A stretch of 64,000 nt of DNA from Mucilaginibacter arboris (GTDB lineage Bacteria; Bacteroidota; Bacteroidia; Sphingobacteriales; Sphingobacteriaceae): positions 1 through 64,000 of the forward strand of contig NZ_WPIK01000014.1 in the NCBI RefSeq assembly GCF_009754915.1. The letters are read 5' to 3'. How positions within the stretch are numbered: the first letter of the stretch is position 1; each line of letters begins with the position of its first letter. The translations under genes and the position numbers were made by a program. Shown in pieces: positions 36,279 to 56,899 of the stretch. Under the pieces are notes generated by a model. That model had not been told where the DNA came from. It saw only the letters and a program-made list of their open reading frames with translations, and made no database searches.

Positions 36279-37427
36279 ATGAATTTATTACAAGTTTATG
36301 AAGCCGTTCGGCAACGATCAGAACAGATTTGCCAGCCCCTGCAAACGGAAGATTATGTTGTTCAGCCTATTCCTGATGTTAGTCCGCCGAAATGGCATTT
36401 AGGCCATACAAGTTGGTTTTTTGAAACTTTTATTCTCAAACCAAATATTATCGGTTACAAAGAGTTTAACCCAGAATACAATTACGTTTTCAACAGCTAT
36501 TACGAAGCGGTTGGCGCACGGGTGATCCGTACCAATCGCGGCAATTTAAGCCGCCCAACCGTACAGGACGTTTATGCGTACCGGGATTATGTAGATACAG
36601 CAATGGAAGGCTTGCTTTCAGGGCCTGTTTCTGCAGAATTACAGGAATTATTAACCTTGGGTTTTTATCACGAAGAACAGCATCAGGAATTATTGTGGAC
36701 GGATATTAAGTATATTCTTGGCCATAACCCGCTTTTTCCGGCTTATGCAGAACATTTTCCGCAAGGAGAAAAGCTTACTGGTGATACTGTTTTTATCCCT
36801 GTAAAATCTGGATTGTACCATATTGGCCATGAAGGCGAAGGTTTTTATTTTGATAACGAACTGGGCCGCCATACTGTTTTTCTGCATGATTTTGCGATCA
36901 GCAGTTCACCGGTTACCAATGCAGAATATTTAGAATTTATGGAGGACGGCGGTTACCAAAACTTTCGTTTCTGGCATGCAGAAGCCTGGGATTGGGTAAA
37001 AAACAACCAAATAAAAGCGCCGCTTTACTGGTATCAAATCCATAACCAATGGTTTAATTATACTTTAGGCGGATTAAAGCTTGTTGATGCAGCCGAACCA
37101 GTTTGCCACGTTAGTTTTTACGAAGCTGCTGCTTTTGCAAGCTGGAAAGGTTTACGCCTGCCAACAGAGTTTGAATGGGAGGTTGCTGCTAAAAACTTTA
37201 ACTGGGGCCGCCGCTGGGAGTGGACAAACAGCGCTTATTTGCCTTATCCCGGTTTTATTACCGCTCCGGGCGCTATCGGCGAGTACAACGGCAAATTCAT
37301 GGTGAACCAGATGGTACTGCGCGGTGCTTCTGATGTTACTTCTCCAAATCATAGTCGTTGCACTTACCGCAATTTTTTTCACCCGCATTTGCGCTGGCAA
37401 TATACCGGCATCCGTTTAGCCCGATAA
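36279..37427 (+). CDS. egtB: Ergothioneine biosynthesis sulfoxide synthase EgtB
   Basis: EgtB is a non-heme iron enzyme that joins a thiol (cysteine or gamma-glutamylcysteine) to C2 of hercynine with O2. The 382-residue protein has an N-terminal DinB-like domain with the iron-binding histidines H43 (LGHTSWFFE) and H131/H135 (HEEQH). The C-terminal formylglycine-generating/sulfatase-modifying-like domain (about 165-382) includes SSPVTNAEYLEF, LPTEFEWEVAA, WEWTNSAY and WQYTGIRLAR. Length fits the family. It is followed after 31 bp by egtD. Genes for EgtA, EgtC and the lyase EgtE are not in the window. Confidence 0.93.
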   Translation: MNLLQVYEAVRQRSEQICQPLQTEDYVVQPIPDVSPPKWHLGHTSWFFETFILKPNIIGYKEFNPEYNYVFNSYYEAVGARVIRTNRGNLSRPTVQDVYAYRDYVDTAMEGLLSGPVSAELQELLTLGFYHEEQHQELLWTDIKYILGHNPLFPAYAEHFPQGEKLTGDTVFIPVKSGLYHIGHEGEGFYFDNELGRHTVFLHDFAISSSPVTNAEYLEFMEDGGYQNFRFWHAEAWDWVKNNQIKAPLYWYQIHNQWFNYTLGGLKLVDAAEPVCHVSFYEAAAFASWKGLRLPTEFEWEVAAKNFNWGRRWEWTNSAYLPYPGFITAPGAIGEYNGKFMVNQMVLRGASDVTSPNHSRCTYRNFFHPHLRWQYTGIRLAR

Positions 37428-37458
37428 AATCAATCAACATCAATTCCCTTACCACCTT

Positions 37459-38433
37459 ATGCCAACTCAATTAACGGCCGAAATCAATCAAAGCAGTACA
37501 TTTTTACAAGATGTATTGGCTGGGTTAACCTCTTCTCCCAAAAAACTTCAATCTAAGTATTTTTACGATGCGGCAGGAGATATTTTGTTCCAGGAGATCA
37601 TGAACTGCCCGGAATATTACCTCACCAACTGCGAAATGGAAATATTTTCTGAACAAACCGCAGGATTGGCAGAAGTGGTTTTAAACGGGTTTAGGGAATT
37701 TGACCTGATCGAATTAGGCGCTGGTGATGCAACCAAATCCACCCATCTGCTCAGGCATTTGCTCGAAATTAAGGCTGATTTTACTTATCTCCCTATCGAT
37801 ATTTCATCGCATGTGATTGAAGAACTGGAACAAACGCTTCCGGCAAAACTTCCCGGCTTAAAACTGCAGGGTTTGAATGGTGATTATTTTGATATGCTAA
37901 AAGAAGCACGCGTAATGTCTGACAGGCCGAAAGTGGTTTTACTTATGGGTTCGAACATCGGAAATATGCCGGTAAAAGAAGCCTATATGTTTTGTGCAGC
38001 TTTACGCCAACAGCTTTCGCCCGGGGACCTGGCTTTAATTGGTTTCGACCTGAAAAAAAATCCGAAAACAATTTTAGCTGCTTATGACGATGCGGCGGGA
38101 ATCACTAAAAATTTCAACCTCAATTTATTAAAAAGGATCAATAATGAATTGAATGTCAACTTCAAATTAAATCAGTTTGATCATTACGCCACTTATGATC
38201 CTGAAAGCGGTTCCTGTAAAAGTTATCTGATCAGTTTAGTAAAACAGGAAGTTCAAATCGGAGAATCAGAATTAATTCAGTTTGAAGAAAACGAGTTTAT
38301 CGATATGGAAATCTCGCAGAAATACACGTTACAGCAAACAGACGATATGGCCCTAAATGCAGGATTTGAACCGGTAAAGCATTTTTTCGACAGTAAAAAC
38401 TGGTTTGTTGATGTGGTTTGGAAGGCTGTATAA
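37459..38433 (+). CDS. egtD: L-histidine N-alpha-methyltransferase EgtD
   Basis: EgtD trimethylates histidine with three S-adenosylmethionine molecules to form hercynine, the first step to ergothioneine. The 324-residue protein has KYFYDAAGDILFQEIMNCPEYYLTNCE at the substrate-binding N-terminus. It also has the SAM motif LIELGAGDATKS (84-95), YLPIDIS and LLMGSNIGNM. These are the hallmarks of the DUF2260/EgtD family. It is the last gene of the operon. One motif copy lies inside (37898-37907, K-E-A-R). Just beyond it is the scar-like repeat at 38500. Confidence 0.93.
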   Translation: MPTQLTAEINQSSTFLQDVLAGLTSSPKKLQSKYFYDAAGDILFQEIMNCPEYYLTNCEMEIFSEQTAGLAEVVLNGFREFDLIELGAGDATKSTHLLRHLLEIKADFTYLPIDISSHVIEELEQTLPAKLPGLKLQGLNGDYFDMLKEARVMSDRPKVVLLMGSNIGNMPVKEAYMFCAALRQQLSPGDLALIGFDLKKNPKTILAAYDDAAGITKNFNLNLLKRINNELNVNFKLNQFDHYATYDPESGSCKSYLISLVKQEVQIGESELIQFEENEFIDMEISQKYTLQQTDDMALNAGFEPVKHFFDSKNWFVDVVWKAV

Positions 38434-39062: not shown

Positions 39063-42000
39063 ATGAGAAAAAAGTTTACTTTATTTATTCTTTTGCTTTT
39101 TGTATGCTATTCAATGACAATGGCACAAACAAACACCATCAAAGGTAAAGTTACTGACAATACCGGGCAGACACTTCCGGGGGTAACTGTAAAAGCAAAC
39201 GGAACTACGAACACAGCAGTTACCGATGTAAATGGTAACTATACCATCAAGGTACCCCCTAATGCTACCTTAGCCTTTTCATACGTAGGTTTTGCTACAC
39301 AAAACGTACCGGTTGGCAGTCAGGATATTATTAACGTAACGCTTACCACAAGCCCTAATAACCTAAACGAAGTAGTGGTAGTAGGTTATGGCACCCAAAA
39401 GAAAAGCCTGGTAACAGGCTCTATTTCAAGTGTTACTGCTCAAGATCTGGAAAACCAACCCATTAACCGTGTAGAGCAGGCTTTGCAAGGCCGCACTTCA
39501 GGTTTAATGATCCAGCAAAATTCTGGCCAGCCCGGTTCTGCTTCAACTGTACGTATCCGCGGTGTAAGTACTTTTTCAAACACAGGTAGCAATGATCCTC
39601 TATGGGTAATAGACGGTGCAATTGTAGATAACGGTGGTATTGGTTTTTTAAATGAAAATGACATTCAGTCAATCGAAGTACTAAAAGATGCTGCTTCAAC
39701 GGCTATATACGGTACTCGCGCTGCTAACGGTGTTATCCTCGTTACCACTAAAAAAGGTAAGGCTGGCCCAATCAGAGTAAATTACAATGGCTTTTACGGA
39801 ACATCTGCGCCGGCACATAAATTAGACTTGTTGAATGCACAACAGTATATAATGATTAGAAATGAATCTGCCATTAATGCAGGTAAAGCAGCACCATTTA
39901 CCAATCCTTCTGCTTATGGTAACGGTACCGACTGGCAATCATTAATTTTTAATAATGATGCCCGCAGACAGGAGCATAATGTAAGCATTAGTGGAGGAAG
40001 TGATAGATCTACCTTCTTCTCATCATTTGGTTACATTACTCAGGATGGTATTGTTGCTTCTGCAATTTCTAAATGGAACCGTGCAAATATCCGTTTAAAT
40101 TCAACCTACAACATCACAAAATTTATTACTATAGGAGAAAATTTAGGTTATAGTCACTCTGTATCCAGCAGTCTTGGTAATACTAATAGTGAATTTGGCG
40201 GTCCGCTTTCTGATGCGATTAACCTTGACCCGCTTACACCTGCTGTTGAAACTGATCCTGCAAAAATTGCAGCTTCTCCTTATTCGACTCAACCTACTGC
40301 TGTCAAAAACAGCGACGGCTTACCTTATGGTATATCAAATCAGGTGGGCCAGGAAATTGTAAACCCATTAGCCTACATTCAAAACAGAGTTGGTAATTAT
40401 AACTGGGACCATAATATTGTAGGTAACGTATATGCAACTATTGAGCCAATTAAAAACTTAAAATTTAATTCGAATTTAAGTACCAAAATGGCTTTCTATG
40501 GTACAGAATCATATTCTCCGCTCTACTACCTCAATTCCTCTAATATTGGTACAAGAACCAACGCTCATCGGGAAATGAACCAAACACTTAATCATAATTT
40601 TGAAAACACTTTAAGCTATAACAGAAGCTTTGGTAAACATACTGCAAGTGTTTTATTGGGTGAGGGTAGTTATTTGGATAATAACACCAGAGGTACAACA
40701 ATAGATTTTTATAATGTTATAGCCCAAGATTTTTACCAGCAAAACTTTAACTACAAGCCCGTTGCCGGTGACATTGTAGGCGGCGCATATGATAATACTC
40801 TCCATAAGTTGAATTCCTTATTTGCGCGCCTTGATTATAACTATGATGAAAAATACCTGCTAACCGGAAATATACGACGAGATGGCTCTTCAAGGTTTGG
40901 CGACAATTATAAATATGGTACATTTCCTGGTTTGTCTATAGGTTGGGTGCCAACACGTGAAGCTTTCTTTCCTAAAACTAATGCTATCAACAACCTTAAA
41001 ATAAGGGCAACTTATGGTGTTGTAGGTAATGATGCCATTGGTGATTTTCAATATGTTTCTACAGTTGGCAGTGGTCGTAACTATACCTTCGGGACTAATG
41101 ACGCGAGTACTATTGGCTGGAGCCCTAACGCACCGTCTAATCCTAGCCTACATTGGGAACAAACTAAATCAACAGATATAGGTTTTGATGCCATTTTGCT
41201 TAATGATTTTACCTTGACTGTTAATTTTTATCATAAGAAAACAGATGGAATTTTATACCAGCCCCCGATACCCGGATATTTGGGATATGCTGCCGCTCCA
41301 TATAGAAACTTAGGTAGTATGGAAAACAAGGGTATGGAATATGAATTAGGCTATCACAAGAAAATTGGTGAGTTTGATTTAGGCATCAATGCTAATGCAA
41401 CATTTAATAAAACTACTGTGCTTAGCATTGCACCCGGTCAGAATTTCGTTGAAAACCAGGCAGCTACTTTTCAAAATCTTGGAAATATCACCCGGTCAAC
41501 CGTTGGTGGCCCATATAATGCATTCTACGGTTATACCATGTTAGGAATTTTCCAAACCCAAGCCGAAGTTGATAGCTATACTTTAAATGGTACCAAAATA
41601 CAACCTAATGCAAAGCCGGGTGACGTAAAATTTGCCGACTTAAATAAAGATGGTAAAATTACAGCTGATGACAGGTCTAACATAGGGAATCCATACCCCA
41701 AATTAACGTATGGTCTAACATTTAGTTTAAAGTACAAAAACTTTGATTTGGTTGCTTTTGGTAACGGACAGGGAGGAAGCCAGATTTTCCAGGGATTACA
41801 CCGTTTAGATATAACCAATGCAAATTATTCAACTTCTATTTTAGATCGATGGACACCAAGCAATCCATCTAATACAATGCCAAGGGTTAATGACAATGAC
41901 CCGAATAGGAATTATCTAAACTTTAGTAAATTATACCTGGAAAGCGGTAACTTTTTCAGGCTGAAAACTTTGCAGGTAGGTTATACTTTCCCTAAAGCTA

Positions 42001-42176
42001 TATCAGGTAAAGTAGGTTTGAACACTTTACGTGTATTTGTATTAAGTGAGAATTTAGCTACAATAACCAAATATGACGGGTATGATCCTGAAGCTGGAGG
42101 TAATGTTTTCGGTATTGACAGGGGGGTGTACCCTCAGGCACGTTCGTTTATGTTGGGCTTAAATGTTGGATTTTAA
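39063..42176 (+). CDS. SusC/RagA-family TonB-linked outer-membrane transporter
   Basis: The 1037-residue protein has a signal peptide ending MTMAQ and a carboxypeptidase-regulatory-like domain (about 25-100: IKGKVTDNTGQTLPGVTVK). The TonB box/SusC signature NEVVVVGYGTQKK follows, then a plug domain (ALQGRTSGLMIQQ, VRIRGVSTF, VLKDAASTAIYGTRAANGVILVTTKKG) and a large barrel ending in RSFMLGLNVGF. It imports oligosaccharides delivered by the SusD partner encoded 15 bp downstream. No N-terminal STN signalling domain is present, which agrees with the absence of an ECF/anti-sigma pair. Confidence 0.95.
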   Translation: MRKKFTLFILLLFVCYSMTMAQTNTIKGKVTDNTGQTLPGVTVKANGTTNTAVTDVNGNYTIKVPPNATLAFSYVGFATQNVPVGSQDIINVTLTTSPNNLNEVVVVGYGTQKKSLVTGSISSVTAQDLENQPINRVEQALQGRTSGLMIQQNSGQPGSASTVRIRGVSTFSNTGSNDPLWVIDGAIVDNGGIGFLNENDIQSIEVLKDAASTAIYGTRAANGVILVTTKKGKAGPIRVNYNGFYGTSAPAHKLDLLNAQQYIMIRNESAINAGKAAPFTNPSAYGNGTDWQSLIFNNDARRQEHNVSISGGSDRSTFFSSFGYITQDGIVASAISKWNRANIRLNSTYNITKFITIGENLGYSHSVSSSLGNTNSEFGGPLSDAINLDPLTPAVETDPAKIAASPYSTQPTAVKNSDGLPYGISNQVGQEIVNPLAYIQNRVGNYNWDHNIVGNVYATIEPIKNLKFNSNLSTKMAFYGTESYSPLYYLNSSNIGTRTNAHREMNQTLNHNFENTLSYNRSFGKHTASVLLGEGSYLDNNTRGTTIDFYNVIAQDFYQQNFNYKPVAGDIVGGAYDNTLHKLNSLFARLDYNYDEKYLLTGNIRRDGSSRFGDNYKYGTFPGLSIGWVPTREAFFPKTNAINNLKIRATYGVVGNDAIGDFQYVSTVGSGRNYTFGTNDASTIGWSPNAPSNPSLHWEQTKSTDIGFDAILLNDFTLTVNFYHKKTDGILYQPPIPGYLGYAAAPYRNLGSMENKGMEYELGYHKKIGEFDLGINANATFNKTTVLSIAPGQNFVENQAATFQNLGNITRSTVGGPYNAFYGYTMLGIFQTQAEVDSYTLNGTKIQPNAKPGDVKFADLNKDGKITADDRSNIGNPYPKLTYGLTFSLKYKNFDLVAFGNGQGGSQIFQGLHRLDITNANYSTSILDRWTPSNPSNTMPRVNDNDPNRNYLNFSKLYLESGNFFRLKTLQVGYTFPKAISGKVGLNTLRVFVLSENLATITKYDGYDPEAGGNVFGIDRGVYPQARSFMLGLNVGF

Positions 42177-42191
42177 TTAAAAAAATTAAAG

Positions 42192-43733
42192 ATGAGAAGA
42201 AAAATTACTTTTGTAGTTGTGTTAGCCACTGGCATACAGCTACTTGGGGCTTGTAAAAAAGACTTGAATGTAAATCCGCAACAACGGGTTTTAGAAACAG
42301 ACTTTTATGCAACCCCTACTCAGGCATATCAATCATTAGTTTCTGTTTATGATATAGTTGGTAATCAATCAAGCGGTTACATGCTTAAAACTGCTATTAT
42401 GAACGTAGCCAGTGATGACCATTGGGCGGGAGGTGCATCAGCATCAGACCTTGGCGATTTGCAATCAGTGGCTACGTACACTATGACTCCTTCATCTCAA
42501 AATGGAGCAGCCGGGCATCTATGGAATAAGGGTTTTACAGGTGTTTACAGGGCCGATGTGTTTTTAGCAAAAATTGGTAACATAGCGGGTTTGGACGACG
42601 CTACCAAAAACAGATATATTGCAGAAGCAAAATTCTTACGAGCTTATTTTTACTTTGATCTGGTTCGTTTCTTTAGGGCTGTGCCATTGATGTTAACACC
42701 TACTAGCCCTGATGATATGTATAATATTGTTCAAGCTAATCCAGATAATGTATATGCACAAATCCTCAAAGACCTGACTGAAGCTCTTCCTAACCTTCCG
42801 GTTACCGTTCCGATAGCTACAGAAGGCGGACGTGTTACCCAAGGTACCGCACATGCTTTACTGGGCAGGATTTATATGTGGCAAAAAAAATACGCTCAAG
42901 CTGCTACAGAACTTGCTGAGGTTAATGGTACTGCACCTGGTGTTTCGCCAAGTAAATATGGTTATCAATTAATGAAAAACTTTAAAGACTTGTGGAGCCC
43001 TAAGAACAAATTTAACAGCGAATCTGTGTTTGAAGTAGTTTTTAACTCTACATCTCAGGGTGGCTGGAATAGCATAGGTTCGACTGAGGGAAATATTGAA
43101 TGTATATTGGTGGGGCCCAGGAGCTATACTACAAAAACTGCTAATGCTCCTGATTATGTTTCCGGATGGAGCGGCCAACCTTATACAGACGAGTTTTTTA
43201 ACCTGATACATAATGATCCGCGTAAAAATGCTACTGTGGCAGATTTGGACAGCCTCGAAAAAAATAATATTGCTACTTATTTACATGCATATCAAAACAC
43301 AGGGCACTTTATCGAGAAATTTGCAGGACGCGTTTCTACCAAAGCAGCAAATGGGCAATTGGAGCTTAATTTTCCGCTTGATATCTACGAAATTAGATTA
43401 GCTGATACTTATTTGCTTGAAGCAGAAGCATTATTACAAAATCAAGCAGGCGTAGGTGCAGGCACACGTGCATATCAGCTTTTAAATGCTGTAAGGGCAC
43501 GTGTAGGATTGGAGCCGGTTGCAGTAACCATGGATAATATCATGAAGGAAAGACGCCTTGAACTTGCAGGCGAAGGCCAACGCTGGTTAGATCTTGTACG
43601 CTGGGGCATTGCCGGTACTGCATTAAAAAGTAAAGGCTTTGTAACAGGTAAAAATGAAATATTTCCTATTCCGATTGCTGAAACTTATAATACTAAAATT
43701 GAACAAACCAAAGAGTGGGGTGGTAGTAAATAA
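42192..43733 (+). CDS. SusD/RagB-family glycan-binding lipoprotein
   Basis: The 513-residue protein has a lipoprotein signal with lipobox LLGAC. It then has the SusD TPR-like helical core (RYIAEAKFLRAYFYFDLVRFFRAVPL, TAHALLGRIYMWQKKYAQAA) and the conserved C-terminal IMKERRLELAGEGQRWLDLVRWG. It caps the SusC barrel and captures glycans at the cell surface. Co-transcribed with susC. A MITE-like element begins about 33 bp after the stop and separates the pair from the enzyme genes. Confidence 0.95.
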   Translation: MRRKITFVVVLATGIQLLGACKKDLNVNPQQRVLETDFYATPTQAYQSLVSVYDIVGNQSSGYMLKTAIMNVASDDHWAGGASASDLGDLQSVATYTMTPSSQNGAAGHLWNKGFTGVYRADVFLAKIGNIAGLDDATKNRYIAEAKFLRAYFYFDLVRFFRAVPLMLTPTSPDDMYNIVQANPDNVYAQILKDLTEALPNLPVTVPIATEGGRVTQGTAHALLGRIYMWQKKYAQAATELAEVNGTAPGVSPSKYGYQLMKNFKDLWSPKNKFNSESVFEVVFNSTSQGGWNSIGSTEGNIECILVGPRSYTTKTANAPDYVSGWSGQPYTDEFFNLIHNDPRKNATVADLDSLEKNNIATYLHAYQNTGHFIEKFAGRVSTKAANGQLELNFPLDIYEIRLADTYLLEAEALLQNQAGVGAGTRAYQLLNAVRARVGLEPVAVTMDNIMKERRLELAGEGQRWLDLVRWGIAGTALKSKGFVTGKNEIFPIPIAETYNTKIEQTKEWGGSK

Positions 43734-43765: not shown

Positions 43766-44046
43766 AATGAAGTTGTTTAAACTTTTTTTCTGGCCCTCTT
43801 TTTTTAAGGTCGATGCTTCTTTTATCACCTAAAAATGCTGGTCATTGTTTTTTTTATCGATTAAGTGTAAACACCAATTTTTATTTGATAAATCACTACC
43901 TGACCTATAAGGTTTTCAAAACCTTATAGGTCAGGTAGTCAATACAAACACCATTTTTACCTGGTAAAAGAAGCATGCATACCAAACCTGAGCATGCCGA
44001 AGGATTAAATTTAAATTGGTACGAAAAGTTTAAACAAACTCAATAA
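43766..44046 (-). mobile_element. MITE-like element, copy 1 (inverted relative to copy 2)
   Basis: A non-coding element of about 281 bp ends in GTTGTTTAAACTTTTT and its inverted counterpart AAAAGTTTAAACAA. The centre is a perfect 22-bp inverted repeat with a one-base loop (43895-43939). Two interspersed motif copies, in opposite directions, lie inside (43815-43824 and 43965-43974). Read on the minus strand it aligns over its whole length with copy 2 at 59587-59925. No transposase is encoded, so it would move only with help from elsewhere. It could also act as a bidirectional terminator. Confidence 0.72.
43895..43939. repeat. Perfect 45-bp palindrome in MITE copy 1
   Basis: The arms ACTACCTGACCTATAAGG..TTTT (22 bp each) pair perfectly around a single C at 43917. 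In copy 2 the inner 15 bp of each arm are conserved around C59722. Confidence 0.85.
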
Positions 44047-44105: not shown

Positions 44106-45350
44106 ATGAAAAGTAAAACCGGCAAAATTCTTATTTTTTCCAGTGCCCTTGTTTTCATATTTGCAATGTTTTTATCACATTGTATATTTAATAACCATGG
44201 TTATGGTGATATAAGAGGTGAAGCTTATGCTGATCAAAAATCGTGTACAAAATGCCATAAAGATATTTATCAGTCTTACCTGCAAACCGGGCATTATCAT
44301 ACATCAACGCCTATTACAGATAATAAGTTACAAAATGATATTCGCCCGGATACTAATGTATTTATCTATAATGACAGCTTACAGATCAGGATAGAGAAAC
44401 TAAAAACGGGTTTATATCAGACAGCGTATTTTAAAAACAAGCTTAAAGTGAGGCAAGAGCGGTTTGACATAGCTTTTGGTTCTGCCGAAAGGGCGCAAAG
44501 TTACGGATATTGGAAAGGGGAGAGTTTATACGAACTGCCTTTATCTTATTTTAGCGATATACATAACTGGGCCATCAGTCCTGGCTTTCCGGCTAACTTA
44601 GTCTATTATAACAGGGCAATTGTAACCAGGTGCCTGGAATGTCATGCATCATTTGCTGAAAGTCATTATATAAAGGGCAAGTCAGCTTTAACGGTAAGTG
44701 AAGCATTTAACAAAAACTCAATAGTTTATGGTATAGATTGCCAGCGGTGTCATGGCCCGGCAGCAGAGCATGTAAATTATCATCTTGATAATCCTGAGGA
44801 TAAGCATGCAAGGTTCATTAAAACTTATCAATCATTAACCCGACAGGGTAAGGTGGAAATGTGCGCTGTATGCCATTCGGGCAACGACCAAAAGATAGAA
44901 AGATCAACTTTTTTATATAAGCCTGGTGATACGCTTTCCAGATTTATTGAACCTGATTTTGGAGGAGAAATACATGAACCAGATGTTCATGGGAACCAGG
45001 CAAAGTTGTTAGCAAGGAGTAAATGTTATGCAAGCAATGTAACGATGACTTGTACCACATGCCATAATAGCCATACTAAAGAAAGCAATAATCTTAATGC
45101 ATATAATGCAAAATGTTTTACATGCCACAATATCGAAACGCATAATTTTTGTAAAATGGCCCCTCAATTAGGTAATACAATTAATACTAAATGCATTGAT
45201 TGCCACATGCCTGCAATCTCATCCAAAATAATTTCTTATAAAATAGCTGGAGCCACAAAAGCCTCCTCTTACCAATTGCATACGCATCAAATAGCAGTTT
45301 ATCCACAAAAAACGCAGGAGATACTGCAAATGATAAAAAAAATTCAGTAA
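44106..45350 (+). CDS. Seven-heme c-type cytochrome (cytochrome c554-like)
   Basis: The 414-residue exported protein has an N-terminal hydrophobic segment (about 7-27, possibly a lipobox at FLSHC). Seven heme-binding motifs follow in order: CTKCH, CLECH, CQRCH, CAVCH, CTTCH, CFTCH and CIDCH. Between the first two lies a conserved non-heme stretch (FGSAERAQSYGYWKGESLYELPLSYF) found in large multiheme proteins. It should transfer electrons in the periplasm or at the cell surface; donor and acceptor are unknown. It heads a tight unit with three GH30 genes (4, 7 and 6 bp gaps), which is unusual for a glycan locus. Confidence 0.87.
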   Translation: MKSKTGKILIFSSALVFIFAMFLSHCIFNNHGYGDIRGEAYADQKSCTKCHKDIYQSYLQTGHYHTSTPITDNKLQNDIRPDTNVFIYNDSLQIRIEKLKTGLYQTAYFKNKLKVRQERFDIAFGSAERAQSYGYWKGESLYELPLSYFSDIHNWAISPGFPANLVYYNRAIVTRCLECHASFAESHYIKGKSALTVSEAFNKNSIVYGIDCQRCHGPAAEHVNYHLDNPEDKHARFIKTYQSLTRQGKVEMCAVCHSGNDQKIERSTFLYKPGDTLSRFIEPDFGGEIHEPDVHGNQAKLLARSKCYASNVTMTCTTCHNSHTKESNNLNAYNAKCFTCHNIETHNFCKMAPQLGNTINTKCIDCHMPAISSKIISYKIAGATKASSYQLHTHQIAVYPQKTQEILQMIKKIQ

Positions 45351-45354
45351 AAAC

Positions 45355-46821
45355 ATGCTTACAAAAATTAAATCAATAATAATAATAGGACTTGCAAGTG
45401 CAGGAATTGTAAGCGGAGGGGTTATGAGTTGTAAGAAGGAAAAACCAGGATTAGGCACAATTGAAACTCCACCTGTTCAGCCGGTAACATCTGTTAAAAC
45501 CGATGTTACCATGTGGTTAACATCGGTAGATGAAGCTGCCTATTTAAAAAAGCAGAATATTAGTTTAATGTTTACCAGTAGCACCAATCAAAATGCAACT
45601 ATTGAGGTAGATACTACCCAAACCTATCAGCCTATTGATGGATTTGGCTTTACGCTTACAGGCGGTAGTGCAACGTTAATAAATAACTTACCTATTGTGC
45701 AAAAAGACGATTTACTAAAAGAACTTTTTTTAACAGATGATACTAAAATTGGTATCAGCTACCTGCGTATTAGCCTCGGCGCTTCCGACTTGAGCGCTGC
45801 TCCCTTTACTTATGATGAAGTATTAGGTACTACAGATATAAACCTACAGAGCTTTAGTATTGACCAGGAGCGAACAGATATGATCCCTATCCTTAAAAAG
45901 ATCATTGCATTAAATCCATCTATTAAAATATTGGCCTGTCCATGGACTGCACCAATTTGGATGAAAAGCAACAATGCCTTTAAAGGAGGTAGCTTGAAAT
46001 CGGAATATTATGATGCTTATGCCCGCTATTTCATAAAGTACATTAATGCAATGAAAGCAGAAGGCATAACTATCGATGCCATAACACCACAAAACGAACC
46101 ATTAAATGCTAATAATAACCCAAGTTTGGTGATGCAGGCATCAGAGCAGGCGGCATTTATAAAAAACTTTTTAGGCCCTCAATTTAAAGCGGCTAATATC
46201 ACTACAAAAATTATTGCTTATGACCATAATGCAGATGTGCCCGATTATCCTGTAGCTGTACTAAGCGACCCTGCTGCTAAACCTTATGTAGATGGTTCGG
46301 CCTTTCATTTATATGCAGGAAATATTAGTGCATTATCAACGGTACATAATGCATTTCCAGACAAAAATATTTATTTTACAGAGCAATGGGTAGGCGCGCC
46401 GAGCAACTTTAACGGTGATTTGCAATGGCATATTAATAATCTGATTATTGGCGCTACCCGAAACTGGAGTCGTAATGTGCTGGAATGGAATTTAGCAGCC
46501 GATCCAAATTATGGCCCACATACCAGTGGTGGCTGCAGTACCTGTTTAGGTGCTTTAACCATTGCTGGCTCTTCTGTAACACGTAATGTGTCATATTATA
46601 TTATTGCTCATGCCTCCAAATTTGTAAGGCCAGGTTCGGTACGGATAAGTTCCAATAACATTGATAAGCTTCAAAATGTAGCTTTTAAAACGCCTGATGG
46701 CAAAAAAGTGCTGATTGTATTAAACAGCGGCAGTAGTGCTCAAACTTTCAATATAAAATTCAACGGGAAAATAACTACGGCTAGCTTAAATAACGGAGCA
46801 GCTGCAACTTTTATATGGTAA
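45355..46821 (+). CDS. GH30 family glycoside hydrolase (lipoprotein), copy 1
   Basis: The 488-residue protein has a lipoprotein signal (GVMSCKK). The GH30 fold opens with QPIDGFGFTLTGGSA. The catalytic acid/base Glu is in TPQNEPLNANN and the nucleophile Glu is in YFTEQWVG. WTAPIWMKSNNAFKGGSL and the C-terminal beta-sandwich (VRPGSVRISSNN to the end) complete it. GH30 enzymes of this type in Bacteroidetes loci commonly cut beta-1,6-glucan. Closest to copy 3 in this cluster (many long identical stretches), less so to copy 2. Confidence 0.92.
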   Translation: MLTKIKSIIIIGLASAGIVSGGVMSCKKEKPGLGTIETPPVQPVTSVKTDVTMWLTSVDEAAYLKKQNISLMFTSSTNQNATIEVDTTQTYQPIDGFGFTLTGGSATLINNLPIVQKDDLLKELFLTDDTKIGISYLRISLGASDLSAAPFTYDEVLGTTDINLQSFSIDQERTDMIPILKKIIALNPSIKILACPWTAPIWMKSNNAFKGGSLKSEYYDAYARYFIKYINAMKAEGITIDAITPQNEPLNANNNPSLVMQASEQAAFIKNFLGPQFKAANITTKIIAYDHNADVPDYPVAVLSDPAAKPYVDGSAFHLYAGNISALSTVHNAFPDKNIYFTEQWVGAPSNFNGDLQWHINNLIIGATRNWSRNVLEWNLAADPNYGPHTSGGCSTCLGALTIAGSSVTRNVSYYIIAHASKFVRPGSVRISSNNIDKLQNVAFKTPDGKKVLIVLNSGSSAQTFNIKFNGKITTASLNNGAAATFIW

Positions 46822-46828
46822 AAACAGC

Positions 46829-48274
46829 ATGAGAAAAAACTTCATATCATCGATATTAATTAGCTGTTCGTTTGTAACTGCTGCGCAACAAAAAACTGGC
46901 CAAGCCTCCGGTGGCCAGGTTAATGTTTATGTTACAGCACAAAATACTGATTTAAGGTTTTCCTCAACAGCAACCCTTAGACTTACGGATAAACCACAGC
47001 CTATTGAAACAGAGACAGCCATATTTGTAGATCCATCTAAAACTTTTCAGACAATGGTAGGAATAGGCGGTGCTTTAACAGATGCTGCAGCTGAAACTTT
47101 TTACAAATTGCCTGCAAGCAAGCAAAAGGAACTGCTTACTGCCTATTATGATAGAGACAAAGGTATTGGCTATACTTTTGCCCGGACCAATATCCAAAGC
47201 TGCGATTTTTCGAGTGATACATACAGCTATGTAGGCGATAACGACGCGGAATTAAAAACTTTCGACATCAGCCATGATAAAAAGTACAGAATTCCCTTTA
47301 TAAAAGAAGCTCAAAAAGCAGCAGGAGGCAACTTAAACCTTTTTGTTTCCCCCTGGAGTCCGCCTGCATGGATGAAGAGTAATAATGATGTTTTGCATGG
47401 CGGTAAGCTGAAACCCGAATTCAGACAAAGCTGGGCGAGCTTCTATGTTAAATTTATCAAAACTTATGAGAAAGAAGGTATTCCTATTTGGGGGCTTTCG
47501 GTGCAAAATGAACCAATGGCTACGCAAAAATGGGAATCATGTATTTATACAGCCGAAGAAGAGCGTGATTTTGTAAAGAATTTTTTAGGGCCAACCTTAC
47601 GTAAAGAAGGTTTAGGCAGCAAAAAGCTCATTATATGGGACCACAACCGCGATTTGCTATATCAACGCGCAAGTATAGTTTTAGAAGATGCAGATGCTGC
47701 ACAATTTGTTTGGGGGATTGGCTTTCACTGGTATGAAACCTGGACAGGCGGCGGTATGCAATTTGAAAGTACTAAACGTGTAAGCGAAGCATTTCCAGGA
47801 AAAAACCTTGTTTTTACAGAAGGATGTATAGAAAAATTTGATTTTGAAAGGTTGAACGACTGGGCACTTGGAGAAAGATATGGCTTATCTATGATCAACG
47901 ATTTTAACAGCGGAACGGTTGCCTGGACAGACTGGAACATACTGTTAGACGAAAAAGGCGGGCCAAATCACGTTGGTAATTTTTGTTTTGCCCCAATACA
48001 TGCCAATACCAGAGATGGAAGTTTACATTATACCAACGAGTATTATTACATCGGCCATTTCTCTAAATATATTAAGCCAGGGGCAAGACGCATCATCAGT
48101 TCTGCCAGCAGGGATAAACTGTTAACTACCGCATATCTTAATCCGGATGGTAAAATTGTGGTAGTGGTTATGAATGCTACGGATGCCAGCGTACCCTATT
48201 CTTTATGGATTAAGGGTAAAGCAGCAGCCACAACCAGCCTTCCGCATTCTATAGCTACTTTAATAATTGATTAA
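46829..48274 (+). CDS. GH30 family glycoside hydrolase, copy 2
   Basis: The 481-residue enzyme has a signal peptide (SCSFVTAAQQ). GIGGALTDAAAETFYKLP is the typical glucosylceramidase-like start, followed by FARTNIQSCDFS and WSPPAWMKSNNDVLHGGKL. The acid/base Glu is in SVQNEPMATQ and the nucleophile Glu is in VFTEGCIEKF. The C-terminal beta-sandwich ends in HSIATLIID. It belongs to a different GH30 branch from copies 1 and 3, probably with different linkage or chain-end preference. It has an exact motif copy at 47301-47310 (K-E-A-Q). Confidence 0.92.
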   Translation: MRKNFISSILISCSFVTAAQQKTGQASGGQVNVYVTAQNTDLRFSSTATLRLTDKPQPIETETAIFVDPSKTFQTMVGIGGALTDAAAETFYKLPASKQKELLTAYYDRDKGIGYTFARTNIQSCDFSSDTYSYVGDNDAELKTFDISHDKKYRIPFIKEAQKAAGGNLNLFVSPWSPPAWMKSNNDVLHGGKLKPEFRQSWASFYVKFIKTYEKEGIPIWGLSVQNEPMATQKWESCIYTAEEERDFVKNFLGPTLRKEGLGSKKLIIWDHNRDLLYQRASIVLEDADAAQFVWGIGFHWYETWTGGGMQFESTKRVSEAFPGKNLVFTEGCIEKFDFERLNDWALGERYGLSMINDFNSGTVAWTDWNILLDEKGGPNHVGNFCFAPIHANTRDGSLHYTNEYYYIGHFSKYIKPGARRIISSASRDKLLTTAYLNPDGKIVVVVMNATDASVPYSLWIKGKAAATTSLPHSIATLIID

Positions 48275-48280
48275 GCGGGG

Positions 48281-49681
48281 ATGAAACAAATTTTTTTAAC
48301 ATCAGCAATGCTGATCATGGTAAATGTATCTTTTGGACAAAAAAAAGGAACTGCTGATGTTTGGTTAACCAATGCTGACCAGTCTGCGTTATTTGAAAAA
48401 CAAAAACAAGCCCTGGTTTTTAAAAAAGCCACCAGTCAAGATTCTGTAATTGAGGTGAACGATCAAAAATCCTATCAGTCTATTGATGGTTTTGGCTTTG
48501 CTTTAACCGGTGGCAGCGCCCAATTAATGATGAAAATGACATCAGCTAATAGGGCGGCTTTAATCAAGGAGCTGTTTGCTACTAACGATAAAAATATAGG
48601 AATCAGTTACCTGCGTATAAGTGTCGGTGCTTCTGATTTAAATGAGTTTGTTTTCTCATACGATGATTTGCCGGATGGGCAAACAGATATGAGCTTATCT
48701 AAATTTAATTTATCACAAGACAAAACAGATGTGGTTCCGGTGCTAAAAGAAGTTTTAGCTATTAATCCAAAGATTAAAATACTTGCCTCACCCTGGTCTG
48801 CACCGGCTTGGATGAAAACCAATAATGATACCCGCGGCGGGAGTTTAAAACCAGAGTGTTTTGACGTTTATGCCCGTTATTTAGTTAAATACATTCAAGC
48901 CATGAAAGCTGAGGGTATAACCATTGATGCTATTACAGTACAAAACGAGCCATTGCACCCTGGCAATAACCCAAGTATGTTAATGATAGCCCCTGACCAG
49001 GCTAATTTTGTAAAGACAAATTTAGGCCCTGCGTTTAAGGCTGCCCATATCACTACTAAGATCATTATTTACGATCATAATGCCGACAGGCCCGATTATC
49101 CCATTTCCATCCTGAATGATGCTGAAGCTAAAAAATATATTGATGGTTCAGCATTTCACTTATACGCAGGTAAAATTGAAGCTTTATCTGAAGTACATGA
49201 GGCCCATCCTGACAAAAACCTGTACTTCACAGAGCAGTGGATGGGTGCGCCTGGAAATTTTAAAAGAGATATTGCAGATCACATTACTAAATTAACCATA
49301 GGTGCTACCCGAAATTGGAGCCGAAGTGTTATAGAATGGAACCTGGCTGCTGATCCTAACAATAACCCTCATACGGATAGGGGCGGATGTAACAGATGCA
49401 TGGGAGGTATTACCATTGATCAGGATAGCATAACTCGTAATCCTGCTTACTATGTTGTAGCCCATGCCGCTAAATTTGTAAGGCCTGGTTCTGTTCGTAT
49501 AAGTTCAAGCTTAGTAGGCTCACTTCATAATGTGGCTTTTAAAACCCCCGACAATAAAATTGTGCTTATCGTAATTAACAATAGTCCTGGTATTCAAAAA
49601 TTTAATATCAGGTACAAAGGTTGTAAAGCTAACACTCAGTTAAACAGCGGTTCTGTTGCTACTTTTGTTTGGGATAATTAG
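48281..49681 (+). CDS. GH30 family glycoside hydrolase, copy 3
   Basis: The 466-residue enzyme has a signal peptide ending VSFGQ. It has YQSIDGFGFALTGGSA, WSAPAWMKTNNDTRGGSL, the acid/base Glu in TVQNEPLHPGNN, the nucleophile Glu in YFTEQWMG, and the C-terminal sandwich. It shares long identical blocks with copy 1 (MKAEGITIDAIT, TTKII-YDHNAD, GATRNWSR), so the two arose by duplication. Copy 1 is a lipoprotein and copy 3 is not, so they may act in different compartments. Last gene of the cytochrome-GH30 unit. Confidence 0.92.
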   Translation: MKQIFLTSAMLIMVNVSFGQKKGTADVWLTNADQSALFEKQKQALVFKKATSQDSVIEVNDQKSYQSIDGFGFALTGGSAQLMMKMTSANRAALIKELFATNDKNIGISYLRISVGASDLNEFVFSYDDLPDGQTDMSLSKFNLSQDKTDVVPVLKEVLAINPKIKILASPWSAPAWMKTNNDTRGGSLKPECFDVYARYLVKYIQAMKAEGITIDAITVQNEPLHPGNNPSMLMIAPDQANFVKTNLGPAFKAAHITTKIIIYDHNADRPDYPISILNDAEAKKYIDGSAFHLYAGKIEALSEVHEAHPDKNLYFTEQWMGAPGNFKRDIADHITKLTIGATRNWSRSVIEWNLAADPNNNPHTDRGGCNRCMGGITIDQDSITRNPAYYVVAHAAKFVRPGSVRISSSLVGSLHNVAFKTPDNKIVLIVINNSPGIQKFNIRYKGCKANTQLNSGSVATFVWDN

Positions 49682-49896: not shown

Positions 49897-51654
49897 ATGA
49901 TGCATCAACAAATTATTGTTCATAGCAAAAATATCATAATTTCCTTAATCCTATTGTTGTCAGTTCCTGCTTATAGTCAGGGATTTTTAAAAGCAAACGG
50001 CAGACTAATTGTAGATAGCAAAGGGAATAAAGTTATTTTAAGAGGAATGGGTTTGGGTGGATGGATGTTGCAGGAAGGTTATATGTTTCGTTTGGCCAAC
50101 ATGGGCCAGCAATACAAAATAAAATCATGTATAGAAGAAGTTGCCGGCCCGGAATATGCAAGCAAATTTTATGAAAGCTGGCTAACTAACCACACTCGTA
50201 AAATTGATGTTGATTCTATGGCTGCTTGGGGTTTTAATTCTATTAGGCTGCCTATGCATTACCAGTTATTTACGCTTCCGGTTGATCTGGAACCTGTTGC
50301 CGGCCAAAATACCTGGCTCGAAAAAGGATTTACCTTAACAGACAGTCTTTTAAAATGGTGCAAAGCAAATAAGATGTATCTGATATTGGATTTACATGCT
50401 GCTCCCGGAGGTCAGGGAAATGATTTACCTATTTCAGATCGTGACCCCAGTAAACCCTCTCTTTGGGAAAGTAAAGCAAATCAGCAAAAAATGATTGCTT
50501 TGTGGAAAAAACTAGCTCAGCGTTATGCGAATGAACCCGCTATTGCTGGCTATGATATTATCAATGAGCCCAACTGGGGATTTGAAAAACCGGAGGATAA
50601 AAGAGGAACTGAAGAAACAAAGAATGAACCTCTGAGACAATTGATGATGGATATTACTAAGGCTATCCGTGAAGTTGATAAAAACCATATTGTGATTATT
50701 GAAGGTAATGGCTTTGGTAATAATTATCGGGGTATTTTCCCGCTTTGGGACCAGAACATGGTTTTGAGTTTTCATAAGTATGGCAATTTTAACAATCCAA
50801 GTGCTATACAGAATTTTTTGAATCTGAGCCAGCAATATCAAGTACCGCTTTGGATGGGTGAATCTGGCGAAAACTCTAATACTTGGTTTACAGAAGCTAT
50901 CCGTTTAGCAGAAAGCAATAACATTGGTTGGTGCTGGTGGCAGTTGAAAAAAATCGGCATTAATAATCCTCTTGAAATCAAATTGACACCATCTTATCAA
51001 AAATTATTGGATTACTGGAACGGAAAAAGTTCAAAACTACCAAAAAATCAGGCGATTGCAGCTCTTGATGAATTTTTAGACAATATCAAATTAGAAAATA
51101 CAATTTATCATAAGGATGTTACGGATGCGATGTTCAGGCAAATTAATACTCAAGCAACTTTGCCTTTTAATAGAAATATAATTGGAGGTAATACTACTAT
51201 TAACGCCATTGATTATGATTTAGGAGGCCAGCGATCAGCTTATTTTGATAAGGATACTGCAAGCTACCAGTACACACCTGGGGTAAAAACAATAGGAAAC
51301 CGTGGACATGCCTATCGTAATGATGGGGTTGATATTCAAGCTGATGATAATAATTACTATGTTTTTAGTATAGAAGATGGCGAATGGTTGCAATACACAA
51401 TCAATGTAAATAGCAAGGGAACCTATACTGTTAGATTTATAGTATCATCTGATGCCGGAAAAGGAACATTTTCCTTAATCCTAAACAATAACCGATTGCC
51501 AGATAGTGTTGCTGTAACTGGTTCCAGGGGCGCTAAAAATTGGTCTACATTCGAATTAAAAAATATTAAACTGCCTAAAGGAAACAACAAAATAAGAGTT
51601 TATGCTGATGAAGGCGGATTTAATCTAAAGGCTATTACTTTTATTAAAAATTAG
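49897..51654 (+). CDS. GH5 family glycoside hydrolase with C-terminal CBM6-like domain
   Basis: The 585-residue enzyme has a signal peptide ending PAYSQ. A GH5 (beta/alpha)8 domain follows (about 25-370), with LRGMGLGGWMLQEGY, the acid/base Glu near residue 224 (DIINEPNWGF) and the nucleophile Glu near residue 325 (WMGESGEN). A carbohydrate-binding module of CBM6 type (about 425-585: VDIQADDNNYYVFSIEDGEWLQYTINV) completes it. Such GH5-CBM6 enzymes include endo- or exo-beta-glucanases acting on beta-1,3/1,6-glucans. Exact linkage cannot be read from sequence. It is followed by the convergent sensor gene. Confidence 0.9.
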   Translation: MMHQQIIVHSKNIIISLILLLSVPAYSQGFLKANGRLIVDSKGNKVILRGMGLGGWMLQEGYMFRLANMGQQYKIKSCIEEVAGPEYASKFYESWLTNHTRKIDVDSMAAWGFNSIRLPMHYQLFTLPVDLEPVAGQNTWLEKGFTLTDSLLKWCKANKMYLILDLHAAPGGQGNDLPISDRDPSKPSLWESKANQQKMIALWKKLAQRYANEPAIAGYDIINEPNWGFEKPEDKRGTEETKNEPLRQLMMDITKAIREVDKNHIVIIEGNGFGNNYRGIFPLWDQNMVLSFHKYGNFNNPSAIQNFLNLSQQYQVPLWMGESGENSNTWFTEAIRLAESNNIGWCWWQLKKIGINNPLEIKLTPSYQKLLDYWNGKSSKLPKNQAIAALDEFLDNIKLENTIYHKDVTDAMFRQINTQATLPFNRNIIGGNTTINAIDYDLGGQRSAYFDKDTASYQYTPGVKTIGNRGHAYRNDGVDIQADDNNYYVFSIEDGEWLQYTINVNSKGTYTVRFIVSSDAGKGTFSLILNNNRLPDSVAVTGSRGAKNWSTFELKNIKLPKGNNKIRVYADEGGFNLKAITFIKN

Positions 51655-51705: not shown

Positions 51706-53634
51706 TTAATCAATGTTAAGGTGTTTTTTGTTTTCGGGTATTTCAAGAATTAATTTACTCCAACCCTGATTGCTGTTTTTCCTGCCTTTTGTTTTCTTTT
51801 CTTCCATTATTCTTTTTACTCGAATAGCGTATTGCCAGCAGGTGCTTTGCCGTATATCTAACCTTTCTGAAAGCTGGTAGGATGAGATAGTACCTTTAGT
51901 AGTGTACATTAAGTAAACCAGATAAAAAGCTTTATTGATTGGGATCCGGCTGTTTTGAAAAATGGTGTTAAACAATACTGATTCTTCATAATTGCAACTG
52001 GTACATCTCCGGCTGTATGGCGCTCGGCCATTTTTATAAATATAACTGCCGCATTTTATACAGCTAAAGCCATTCTTCCACTTAATTTCAGCTAAAAATT
52101 TATTACATTTTTCCTGATCGGTATATTTAGCGCTAAATTCTTCGAAAGAAAGCTCGGTCGATAGAATGCGTGCATCAGTAACCTTTTCAATATTACTTTT
52201 CAATTCAATGTTATCGTGCTCCAGCAAAATATTCATTCTGGATATATCAGCCGCTTGTAACTCTAGCTGTTTGTTAATAGCAATAAGCTCTTCATTTTGA
52301 GTTTCGATAATAACCGCCTGTTTCAATAATTCCTCTGATTTCTCGGTTACCTCTTTGGTACGCAGCCTTACCTTAACCTCTAATTCTTTATTTAAAGAGT
52401 CTTTTAATTTAATTGTTTCATCATGTGCTTCTTCCTTCTCTTTGCGTAGCAGGCGAATTTGATCTCCTATTGAAAAGGATAAAAAGGTCATTTCTAAAAT
52501 AAAGCATCCGCTTAAACTATAGTTGGTAATAATGCCCGTTATAGCATGTGCATAACCCAAAACAGTGAGTGCTTTAATAACAAAACCTATAGTTAAAAAC
52601 GTGTAGCCTAATACAAAAAACCGGGCTGGTTTAAAACCGTGGGCCCAAATAGTAATACCTGTTATAAAAGCAATGGAAAGCGGAATAAATTCGATGAACT
52701 TGTAATAAAACAAGCTATTGTCAAATACCAAGCAATAAATAAAATATACTGATCTGATTATAATAATGTAGTTTATAAGCTTATAAAGCTTTGGTGCTGT
52801 AACACGAACATGTAATAATGCTTTAGTAAATACTAAAGCAAAAAGGCTAACACTATATAGGGCAAATCCATAAGCATATTGGTTCCAATGAGGAGCGTTT
52901 GGCCAAACATATTGAAAAGCAATACCATCAATGCTCATTTCGTAAAGGCCAACACTTAGGATGTAAAGTACATAATAAAGGTACTGGCGTTTTTTAACCG
53001 CTATAAACATTAATAAATTATGGAAGCTGAAAATTAATATAATACCATAAAAAAGGCCATAAGTAAAATATTCTGTTAAAGCATAGTAAACAAAGTATTT
53101 CGTTTGTCTGTAAACCATAATGATGTTAACCGCATCTTTAGATTGTACCTTAAAATAACAGGCATATTCTCCTTTAGGTAGTTTACTGATCTGAAATTCA
53201 AAATTTTTGTGTTTATATAACCTATTATCAAAATTAAAGTTAGATCCTGTTTTACTTTCAATGTAATGACCATTGAAATCGGGCAGGTACGCAGTGATAC
53301 TATTGGTTGTTTGATCAAAAAACTCAATTATCGATGCCTGATCTGGTATGTCTTCAGTAAATTTAAATTTTATCCTATACCAACAGGTGGTATTAGAAAG
53401 ATGTTTAGGATAGTAGCCGGTATATAATTTAAATCGGCTGCTATACAAATTGCTTTTTACATCAATTATGGACAGCTTGTTCTGGTTGTCAGCCAAAAAT
53501 TCAATTTCCTGTCCAGTGAAAAAATGTTGTTTAACCTGGCTGTTTATTGAAACCGCTTTTTGAGCCAGTACATTTTGTACCAGTACATATAACAGGAAAA
53601 TAAGACCAGTACTGATCTTTTTAATCATTATCAA
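51706..53634 (-). CDS. 7TMR-DISM membrane sensor fused to IS1595-type zinc ribbon and helix-turn-helix-like domain
   Basis: The 642-residue protein has a signal peptide (about 1-24), an extracytoplasmic 7TMR-DISMED2-like domain (about 30-170) and seven membrane helices (about 185-390). A coiled coil follows (about 390-490). The C-terminal region (495-642) reads like the zinc ribbon found at the N-terminus of IS1595-family transposases: EEFSAKYTDQEKCNKFLAEIKW, C525/C528 (CIKC), C544/C547 (CTSC), NTIFQNSRIPINKAFYLVYLM. A helix-turn-helix-like segment comes next (about 582-612, SYQLSERLDIRQSTCWQYAIRVKRI). There is no DDE nuclease domain. I infer a one-component, membrane-bound DNA-binding regulator for this locus. 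Confidence 0.8.
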   Translation of the reverse strand: MIMIKKISTGLIFLLYVLVQNVLAQKAVSINSQVKQHFFTGQEIEFLADNQNKLSIIDVKSNLYSSRFKLYTGYYPKHLSNTTCWYRIKFKFTEDIPDQASIIEFFDQTTNSITAYLPDFNGHYIESKTGSNFNFDNRLYKHKNFEFQISKLPKGEYACYFKVQSKDAVNIIMVYRQTKYFVYYALTEYFTYGLFYGIILIFSFHNLLMFIAVKKRQYLYYVLYILSVGLYEMSIDGIAFQYVWPNAPHWNQYAYGFALYSVSLFALVFTKALLHVRVTAPKLYKLINYIIIIRSVYFIYCLVFDNSLFYYKFIEFIPLSIAFITGITIWAHGFKPARFFVLGYTFLTIGFVIKALTVLGYAHAITGIITNYSLSGCFILEMTFLSFSIGDQIRLLRKEKEEAHDETIKLKDSLNKELEVKVRLRTKEVTEKSEELLKQAVIIETQNEELIAINKQLELQAADISRMNILLEHDNIELKSNIEKVTDARILSTELSFEEFSAKYTDQEKCNKFLAEIKWKNGFSCIKCGSYIYKNGRAPYSRRCTSCNYEESVLFNTIFQNSRIPINKAFYLVYLMYTTKGTISSYQLSERLDIRQSTCWQYAIRVKRIMEEKKTKGRKNSNQGWSKLILEIPENKKHLNID

Positions 53635-56677: not shown

Positions 56678-56899
56678 ATAGGTGTAACGAAATCGACAAA
56701 ATTCGAAGGTTATTCAACAGCTTTAAATCCAAGTTACCGTTTCCTTCATAAAATAGAAAGGGGAATATAAGGGTAAAGAGAACCTTTTGCGATTGAAGTA
56801 ATAATCTATGATTTTACACAATGAGATATTTTGCATGGTGTTTTTTCTACTCTGATATTTGTGATTACATTCAGTTTCCAAATTATAGACTATATTATT

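Follow-up and report, generated by a model that had tools for sequence, protein, structure and literature searches.

The analysed stretch, referred to here as the window, comprises 64,000 nucleotides of the Mucilaginibacter arboris genome (contig NZ_WPIK01000014.1, positions 1 to 64,000) and contains a polysaccharide utilization locus (PUL) of the SusCD type, with a SusC/SusD pair and linked CAZymes on one strand. A SusC-like TonB-dependent receptor (39063–42176, + strand; Pfam Plug, CarbopepD_reg_2 and TonB barrel) is followed by a SusD-like lipoprotein (42192–43733, +; Pfam SusD_RagB and SusD-like_3, GACKKD lipobox) and, after 372 bp, by an open reading frame for a heptahaem c-type cytochrome (44106–45350, +), which starts with ATG and encodes 414 amino acids. 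Three GH30 genes come next, separated from the cytochrome and from each other by 4, 7 and 6 bp: a lipoprotein (45355–46821, +; PF02055 at 153.4 bits, signal GVMSCKKEK), a protein that resembled 2WNW and glucosylceramidases in a PDB search (46829–48274, +; PF02055 at 248.7 bits) and a 5NGK-like protein (48281–49681, +). Beyond a further 215 bp lies a GH5 enzyme with a C-terminal CBM6 (49897–51654, +; PF00150 and PF03422). Downstream are two GH3 genes (54263–56677 and 56831–59299, both +; PF00933 and PF01915), the first of which may encode a periplasmic β-glucosidase of the same pathway, and a GFO/IDH/MocA oxidoreductase with the twin-arginine (Tat) signal RRNFLRQL (60019–61125, +).

Between the GH5 and GH3 genes, on the opposite strand, lies a probable regulator (51706–53634, −), a 7TMR-DISM receptor whose C-terminal stretch resembles an IS1595-type zinc ribbon/HTH by Pfam (PF12760, 21.2 bits, under the cut-off of 25.4). 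The cluster to which this protein belongs occurs in 20 of the neighbourhoods compared below, and the C-terminal stretch is alike in all 20; the protein could regulate the PUL from the membrane, with a DNA-binding part derived from a transposase. Upstream of the PUL, at 36279–38433, an FGE-sulfatase/DinB protein is followed by a histidine-specific methyltransferase, a pair that looks to be of the EgtB/EgtD type, for ergothioneine or a relative.

The stop codon of the cytochrome gene stands 4 bp before the ATG (45355) of the first GH30 gene, as an earlier note on this DNA had reported. That note also placed the cytochrome at the head of the GH30 unit, which is a fair description given the 372 bp gap to SusD and the palindrome within it, although it is from the spacing that we infer co-transcription, and hence production of the cytochrome together with the GH30 enzymes. 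The palindrome (20 pairs, 43896–43938) recurs across the genome: its half-site has 19 matches at two mismatches or fewer, and the reversed control none. This dispersed REP-like element may have a terminator or attenuator role.

Exactly seven CxxCH motifs were found in the cytochrome frame, at residues 47, 176, 212, 253, 316, 337 and 363, confirming the count given before. Among 20,000 shuffled versions of the protein the mean was 0.03 motifs and none had more than 2; every other frame of the window holds one at most. By motif count the predicted product is a multihaem c-type cytochrome, and it is encoded once in the M. arboris genome. Its remaining cysteines are Cys26, Cys307 and Cys349. Several Pfam multihaem models score above their cut-offs, namely MtrC/MtrF domain II/IV (40.3 bits, cut-off 30), Cytochrome_C554 (29.5, curated cut-off 20.8), Cytochrome_C7 (30.0, curated cut-off 24.8), Paired_CXXCH_1 and Cytochrom_c3_2. 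The profile similarity to the decahaem MtrA/DmsE and OmcA/MtrC cytochromes is weak: the protein has seven haem motifs rather than ten and falls far under both family cut-offs, with 24.6 against 209.3 bits for OmcA/MtrC (TIGR03507) and 42.1 against 192.2 for DmsE/MtrA (TIGR03508). The NrfH quinol dehydrogenase model TIGR03153 gave 17.2 against 134.2. A PDB sequence search returned weak multihaem matches only, and AlphaFold, run on two sequences, gave a model of the cytochrome with a mean pLDDT of 30.9, which is not usable.

Relatives of the cytochrome extend well beyond PULs. A profile search found them in 195 of the 395 class genomes covered and in 44 of 296 genomes drawn from the phylum, most of the distant ones having open frames of about 600–750 residues. 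We aligned 104 short forms with 16 long forms from other Bacteroidia (L157–L172), the latter of 613–696 residues with seven CxxCH each and with C-terminal TPR repeats in all three that were scanned with Pfam. All seven CxxCH positions are conserved across the alignment; counted over 101 aligned homologues, 100 have seven motifs and one has six. Short and long forms also share Cys307, His222, His323, His394 and a W155/P159/G160 motif, while the long forms differ in their TPR repeats, their length, a Met at position 63 and neighbourhoods that are not PUL-like. The PUL cytochrome is thus related to a widespread heptahaem-TPR protein and is the shorter of the two. Most genomes with a long form gave one match in the class search, and some long forms lie between genes that by eye resemble dapF, a GNAT protein gene and MltG.

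Among the candidate distal haem ligands, His222, His323 and His394 are present in all 120 sequences. Position 63 is His in 104/104 short forms and Met in 16/16 long forms, His295 of all short forms is matched by His298 in all long forms, and His346 is found in 98/104 short and 2/16 long forms. For the seven haems of the short forms there are thus six well-conserved histidines that could serve as distal ligands. Cys307 lies outside any CxxCH and is conserved in 120/120 sequences; it may be a haem ligand, the disulfide partner of Cys349 (present in 68/104 short and 15/16 long forms) or catalytic. The absence of a seventh such histidine and the invariant Cys307 would suit a protein that is itself an enzyme, perhaps a peroxidase, or a reductase of some small molecule encountered on the fungal wall, with an active site formed by Cys307 and the haem that lacks a conserved distal His. 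Ligand assignment from sequence is weak, however, the low-pLDDT model does not help, and Cys307 could simply pair with Cys349, so we regard a catalytic role of this kind as quite improbable.

A hydrophobic stretch of 19 residues at the N-terminus of the cytochrome averages 2.25 in hydropathy, against 0.69 at most elsewhere, as expected of an export signal. Just after it, Cys26 is conserved in 96/104 short and 16/16 long forms. In the short forms the residue preceding Cys26 (lipobox −1) is Q (75) or R (18), together 93/104, and in the window cytochrome it is H, whereas the SusD proteins of the same loci have S, A or G at that position in 66 of 70 scored, by a simple lipobox rule that chose the wrong cysteine in some cytochromes. 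The small residue at −1 seen in surface lipoproteins is therefore lacking from the cytochrome, and its sorting is probably unlike theirs. Because its lipobox differs from that of the neighbouring SusD, we judge a periplasm-facing tether likelier than surface display; the protein is predicted to be exported and is probably tethered by its N-terminus, facing the periplasm.

The gene position and part of the sequence would nevertheless suit display at the cell surface beside SusD and GH30, where the cytochrome would pass electrons to Fe(III), O2 or peroxide and the fungal wall would be loosened oxidatively. Surface glycan-binding proteins are often encoded between SusD and the first enzyme gene, and the cytochrome occupies that place between SusD and the first GH30 in the window and in L033–L038; the conserved Cys26, the MtrC/MtrF domain score and the location of some copies beside CRTAC1/PAP2 genes or near multicopper oxidase genes fit the same picture. 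The Q or R at lipobox −1 speaks against it, as do the low score with the OmcA/MtrC model, the lack of any porin–cytochrome partner recognised by Pfam in the window PUL and the distribution of LPMOs described below. We consider surface display doubtful.

The association with GH30 was examined across genomes. Homologues of the cytochrome (E value of 1e-10 or better) are present in 149 of the 399 family genomes and in 156 of 400 genomes of a draw from the order that overlaps the family set; Mucilaginibacter pallidiroseus was the sole relative found under a species name. We compared 101 neighbourhoods of about 17 kb, consisting of the window and 100 of the listed family matches picked by hand down the ranking; near-duplicates were thinned, many of those skipped belonging to one genus (g13), and L003 was left out as lying on the same contig as L083 (length 369560 for both). 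Within this sample SusD is present in 75 neighbourhoods, SusC in 56, GH30 in 44, GH5-CBM6 in 35, a CRTAC1-type protein in 21 and GH16 in 19; PAP2 proteins and CxxCH-bearing FG-GAP proteins each occur in 13. In 44/44 of the GH30 neighbourhoods a GH30 gene lies inside the same-strand run of the cytochrome (gaps of 400 bp or less), and in 43/101 an immediate same-strand neighbour of the cytochrome is a GH30 or GH5 gene. From the abundance of GH30 (58 matches in about 103 Mb, 20 genomes) a GH30 gene is expected by chance in 0.9% of 16 kb stretches, against the 44/101 observed, and chance co-location was rejected; a binomial probability worked out on this basis counts related genomes as independent and is not to be read at face value. 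In a second, independent count among the matches listed, a BT3312-like GH30 lies no more than 8 kb from 50 of 150 cytochromes, and a cytochrome accompanies 50 of 150 such GH30 genes.

At least four gene orders occur: SusCD-cytochrome-GH30, SusCD-GH30-GH5-cytochrome, SusD-GH16-GH30-GH30-cytochrome-GH5 and FecR-SusCD-GH30-cytochrome. As the order differs between groups, the GH30 partners have been kept through rearrangement. A quick tree was built from 120 rows, leaving out L119 (263 residues); support is below 80 for 28 of its 117 inner branches. The GH30-context cytochromes fall in several deep clades on it, the label changing 9 times where shuffling gave a mean of 36.2, and the CRTAC1-context cytochromes stand nearly together. 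Because the order varies and GH30 contexts fall in several clades, inheritance of a single frozen operon in one lineage was rejected. The first branch among the short forms is L155, from another family, with the order FecI-FecR-SusC-SusD-x-cytochrome-CRTAC1-GH30-GH30; of the other short forms outside the family, L153 lies near a SusC-like gene and L156 near a CRTAC1-like one, and L154 has no PUL-like neighbours. The earlier note had made recurrence in other genomes, as against occurrence in this genome only, the test of the pairing, and with GH30 in 44/101 neighbourhoods the pairing is real, conserved and old. It follows that a role for the cytochrome in glycan use, as that note had supposed, is likely. 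Gene mobility could in principle carry the cytochrome in PULs with no such role, and the existence of equivalent PULs without it and the variety of its neighbourhoods would suit a passenger; the unbroken record of same-strand GH30 runs (44/44) and the retention of partners through repeated re-ordering make this highly improbable.

The cytochrome is an accessory part of GH30 PULs. When GH30 loci were picked for lacking a nearby cytochrome, SusC or SusD was present in 11 of 20, and three loci (L173, L178 and L180) come close to the complete SusCD-GH30-GH5 arrangement of the window; as such equivalent loci exist, some PULs can do without the cytochrome. In PULs that lack it, SusD is commonly followed by a lipoprotein with a PKD domain (cluster 50). 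The idea that the cytochrome replaces a surface glycan-binding protein in a clean swap was rejected because three cytochrome loci (L070, L079 and L111) carry the PKD lipoprotein as well.

Conversely, 57 of the 101 cytochromes have no GH30 nearby and lie in other SusCD clusters, in CRTAC1/PAP2 clusters or in no cluster. In some loci FecI-FecR-SusC-SusD is the only company, in others CRTAC1/PAP2/SusD genes lie alongside, mostly on the opposite strand, and in others again there is no PUL. The second of these contexts combines an FG-GAP protein with CxxCH, a haloperoxidase-like PAP2 protein and a CRTAC1-type UnbV_ASPIC protein with SusD on the other strand (L087, L093, L103, L107, L115, L116, L121, L123, L125, L127 and L128), and is a second recurrent, redox-looking SusCD cluster. 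In L082, L095 and L077 a multicopper oxidase gene (cluster 61) adjoins the cytochrome on the opposite strand.

The wider association with SusD (75 neighbourhoods, against 44 for GH30) and the FecI-FecR-SusCD-cytochrome loci without GH30 would also fit a more general carrier, linked to quinol or to another cytochrome, that accompanies high-flux uptake systems and is used when sugar outruns oxygen, the link to GH30 then reflecting shared regulation. The single N-terminal hydrophobic segment and the housekeeping-type neighbourhoods of the long form in several lineages agree with such a respiratory valve. It leaves unexplained why GH30, GH5 and GH16 remain next to the cytochrome in deeply separated branches and despite changes in gene order, and the NrfH model scores far below its cut-off; we think a valve of this sort rather unlikely.

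The earlier note had called the GH30 enzymes glucanases. This fits the third enzyme (48281–49681), whose first-listed PDB match, at 291 bits, is 5NGK, that is, BT3312, which PMC5481569 describes as an endo-1,6-β-glucanase from a PUL with which Bacteroides uses fungal 1,6-β-glucan; it suits the second (46829–48274) less well, as that enzyme has 2WNW as its first-listed match, followed by glucosylceramidases. Related loci add a GH16 with a SKN1/KRE6 match. On account of this match, of the GH3 genes and of the similarity to 5NGK, the substrate of the window PUL is likely a fungal-type β-1,6/1,3-glucan, as judged from similarity alone. For two hallmarks of 1,6-β-glucan PULs, a BT3312-like endo-1,6-β-glucanase and GH3, the window offers candidates by sequence similarity. 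With the B. thetaiotaomicron 1,6-β-glucan PUL BT3309–BT3314, as described in PMC5481569, the window locus shares SusCD, a GH30 close to BT3312 and nearby GH3 genes, and it differs in having three GH30 genes, GH5-CBM6 and the heptahaem cytochrome; the word cytochrome is absent from that paper. Among the window PUL genes we recognised no counterpart of the surface glycan-binding protein BT3313.

For the oxidative step on the glycan that was suggested earlier, an LPMO as the driver is not supported. LPMO_10 (PF03067) has no match in the M. arboris genome or in 20/20 other genomes with cytochrome homologues, which makes electron donation to an LPMO unlikely; on PF03067 this partner was rejected, and its absence from 21/21 genomes also counts against the surface-displayed redox partner considered above. 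The proposed link to the Tat-exported oxidoreductase concerns the twin-arginine protein at 60019–61125. It lies about 15 kb from the cytochrome, with a gene on the opposite strand and two GH3 genes in between, and a similar GFO/IDH/MocA-type cluster occurs in five of the 101 cytochrome neighbourhoods, all of another group, and in none of the GH30 ones. The local protein is outside any conserved unit with the cytochrome, and the link is weak. We found no dehydrogenase or oxidase conserved across the 44 GH30 neighbourhoods. A GSDH-type sugar dehydrogenase has two matches in the M. arboris genome, both on other contigs.

Our preferred reading, which we put forward tentatively, is that the exported heptahaem cytochrome, N-terminally tethered and likely facing the periplasm, transfers electrons as an accessory component of a PUL for fungal-type β-1,6/1,3-glucan. 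The cytochrome would be produced together with the glucanases; β-glucan oligosaccharides would be imported to the periplasm and undergo a redox reaction there, and the cytochrome would pass electrons between that reaction and the respiratory chain. The likeliest direction would be away from the sugar, the cytochrome accepting electrons from a glycoside dehydrogenase that works in the periplasm and whose genes lie elsewhere. The lactose/glycoside 3-dehydrogenase LacABC, which includes a c-type cytochrome subunit, offers a parallel. A periplasmic redox step on glycosides is reported, and a LacABC-like periplasmic dehydrogenase is reported to matter for glycoside use by a Pedobacter strain (PMC9007349), and on this analogy the acceptor role is plausible. 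No Lac-type dehydrogenase genes were recognised next to the cytochrome, either in the window or among the neighbourhood clusters scanned with Pfam. The secure part of the preferred reading is the predicted tethered heptahaem electron-transfer protein from, or next to, a β-glucan PUL.

PULs are understood as machines for binding, cutting and import, and the association of a multihaem cytochrome with GH30 is surprising as well as conserved beyond the M. arboris genome. A search of open-licence literature, by titles and the beginnings of abstracts, found no report of a multihaem cytochrome in a Bacteroidota PUL, which is weak evidence of novelty as only open-licence papers were covered. Multihaem cytochromes have been little studied in Mucilaginibacter and its relatives. 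The recurrence of this one in dozens of related species suggests an unrecognised redox step that accompanies β-glucan digestion, and if the heptahaem cytochrome is a true PUL member, electron transfer belongs to some PULs. It is also a candidate for an oxidative route on β-glucan that does without LPMOs. In the boldest form of this idea, which we consider unlikely, the PULs would be redox-assisted, with one haem of the cytochrome cysteine-ligated or open and the protein directly oxidising or reducing β-glucan or its oligosaccharides. Were such a direct reaction to take place, soil Bacteroidota would have PULs that couple digestion outside the cell with respiration by means of a multihaem protein dedicated to the task.
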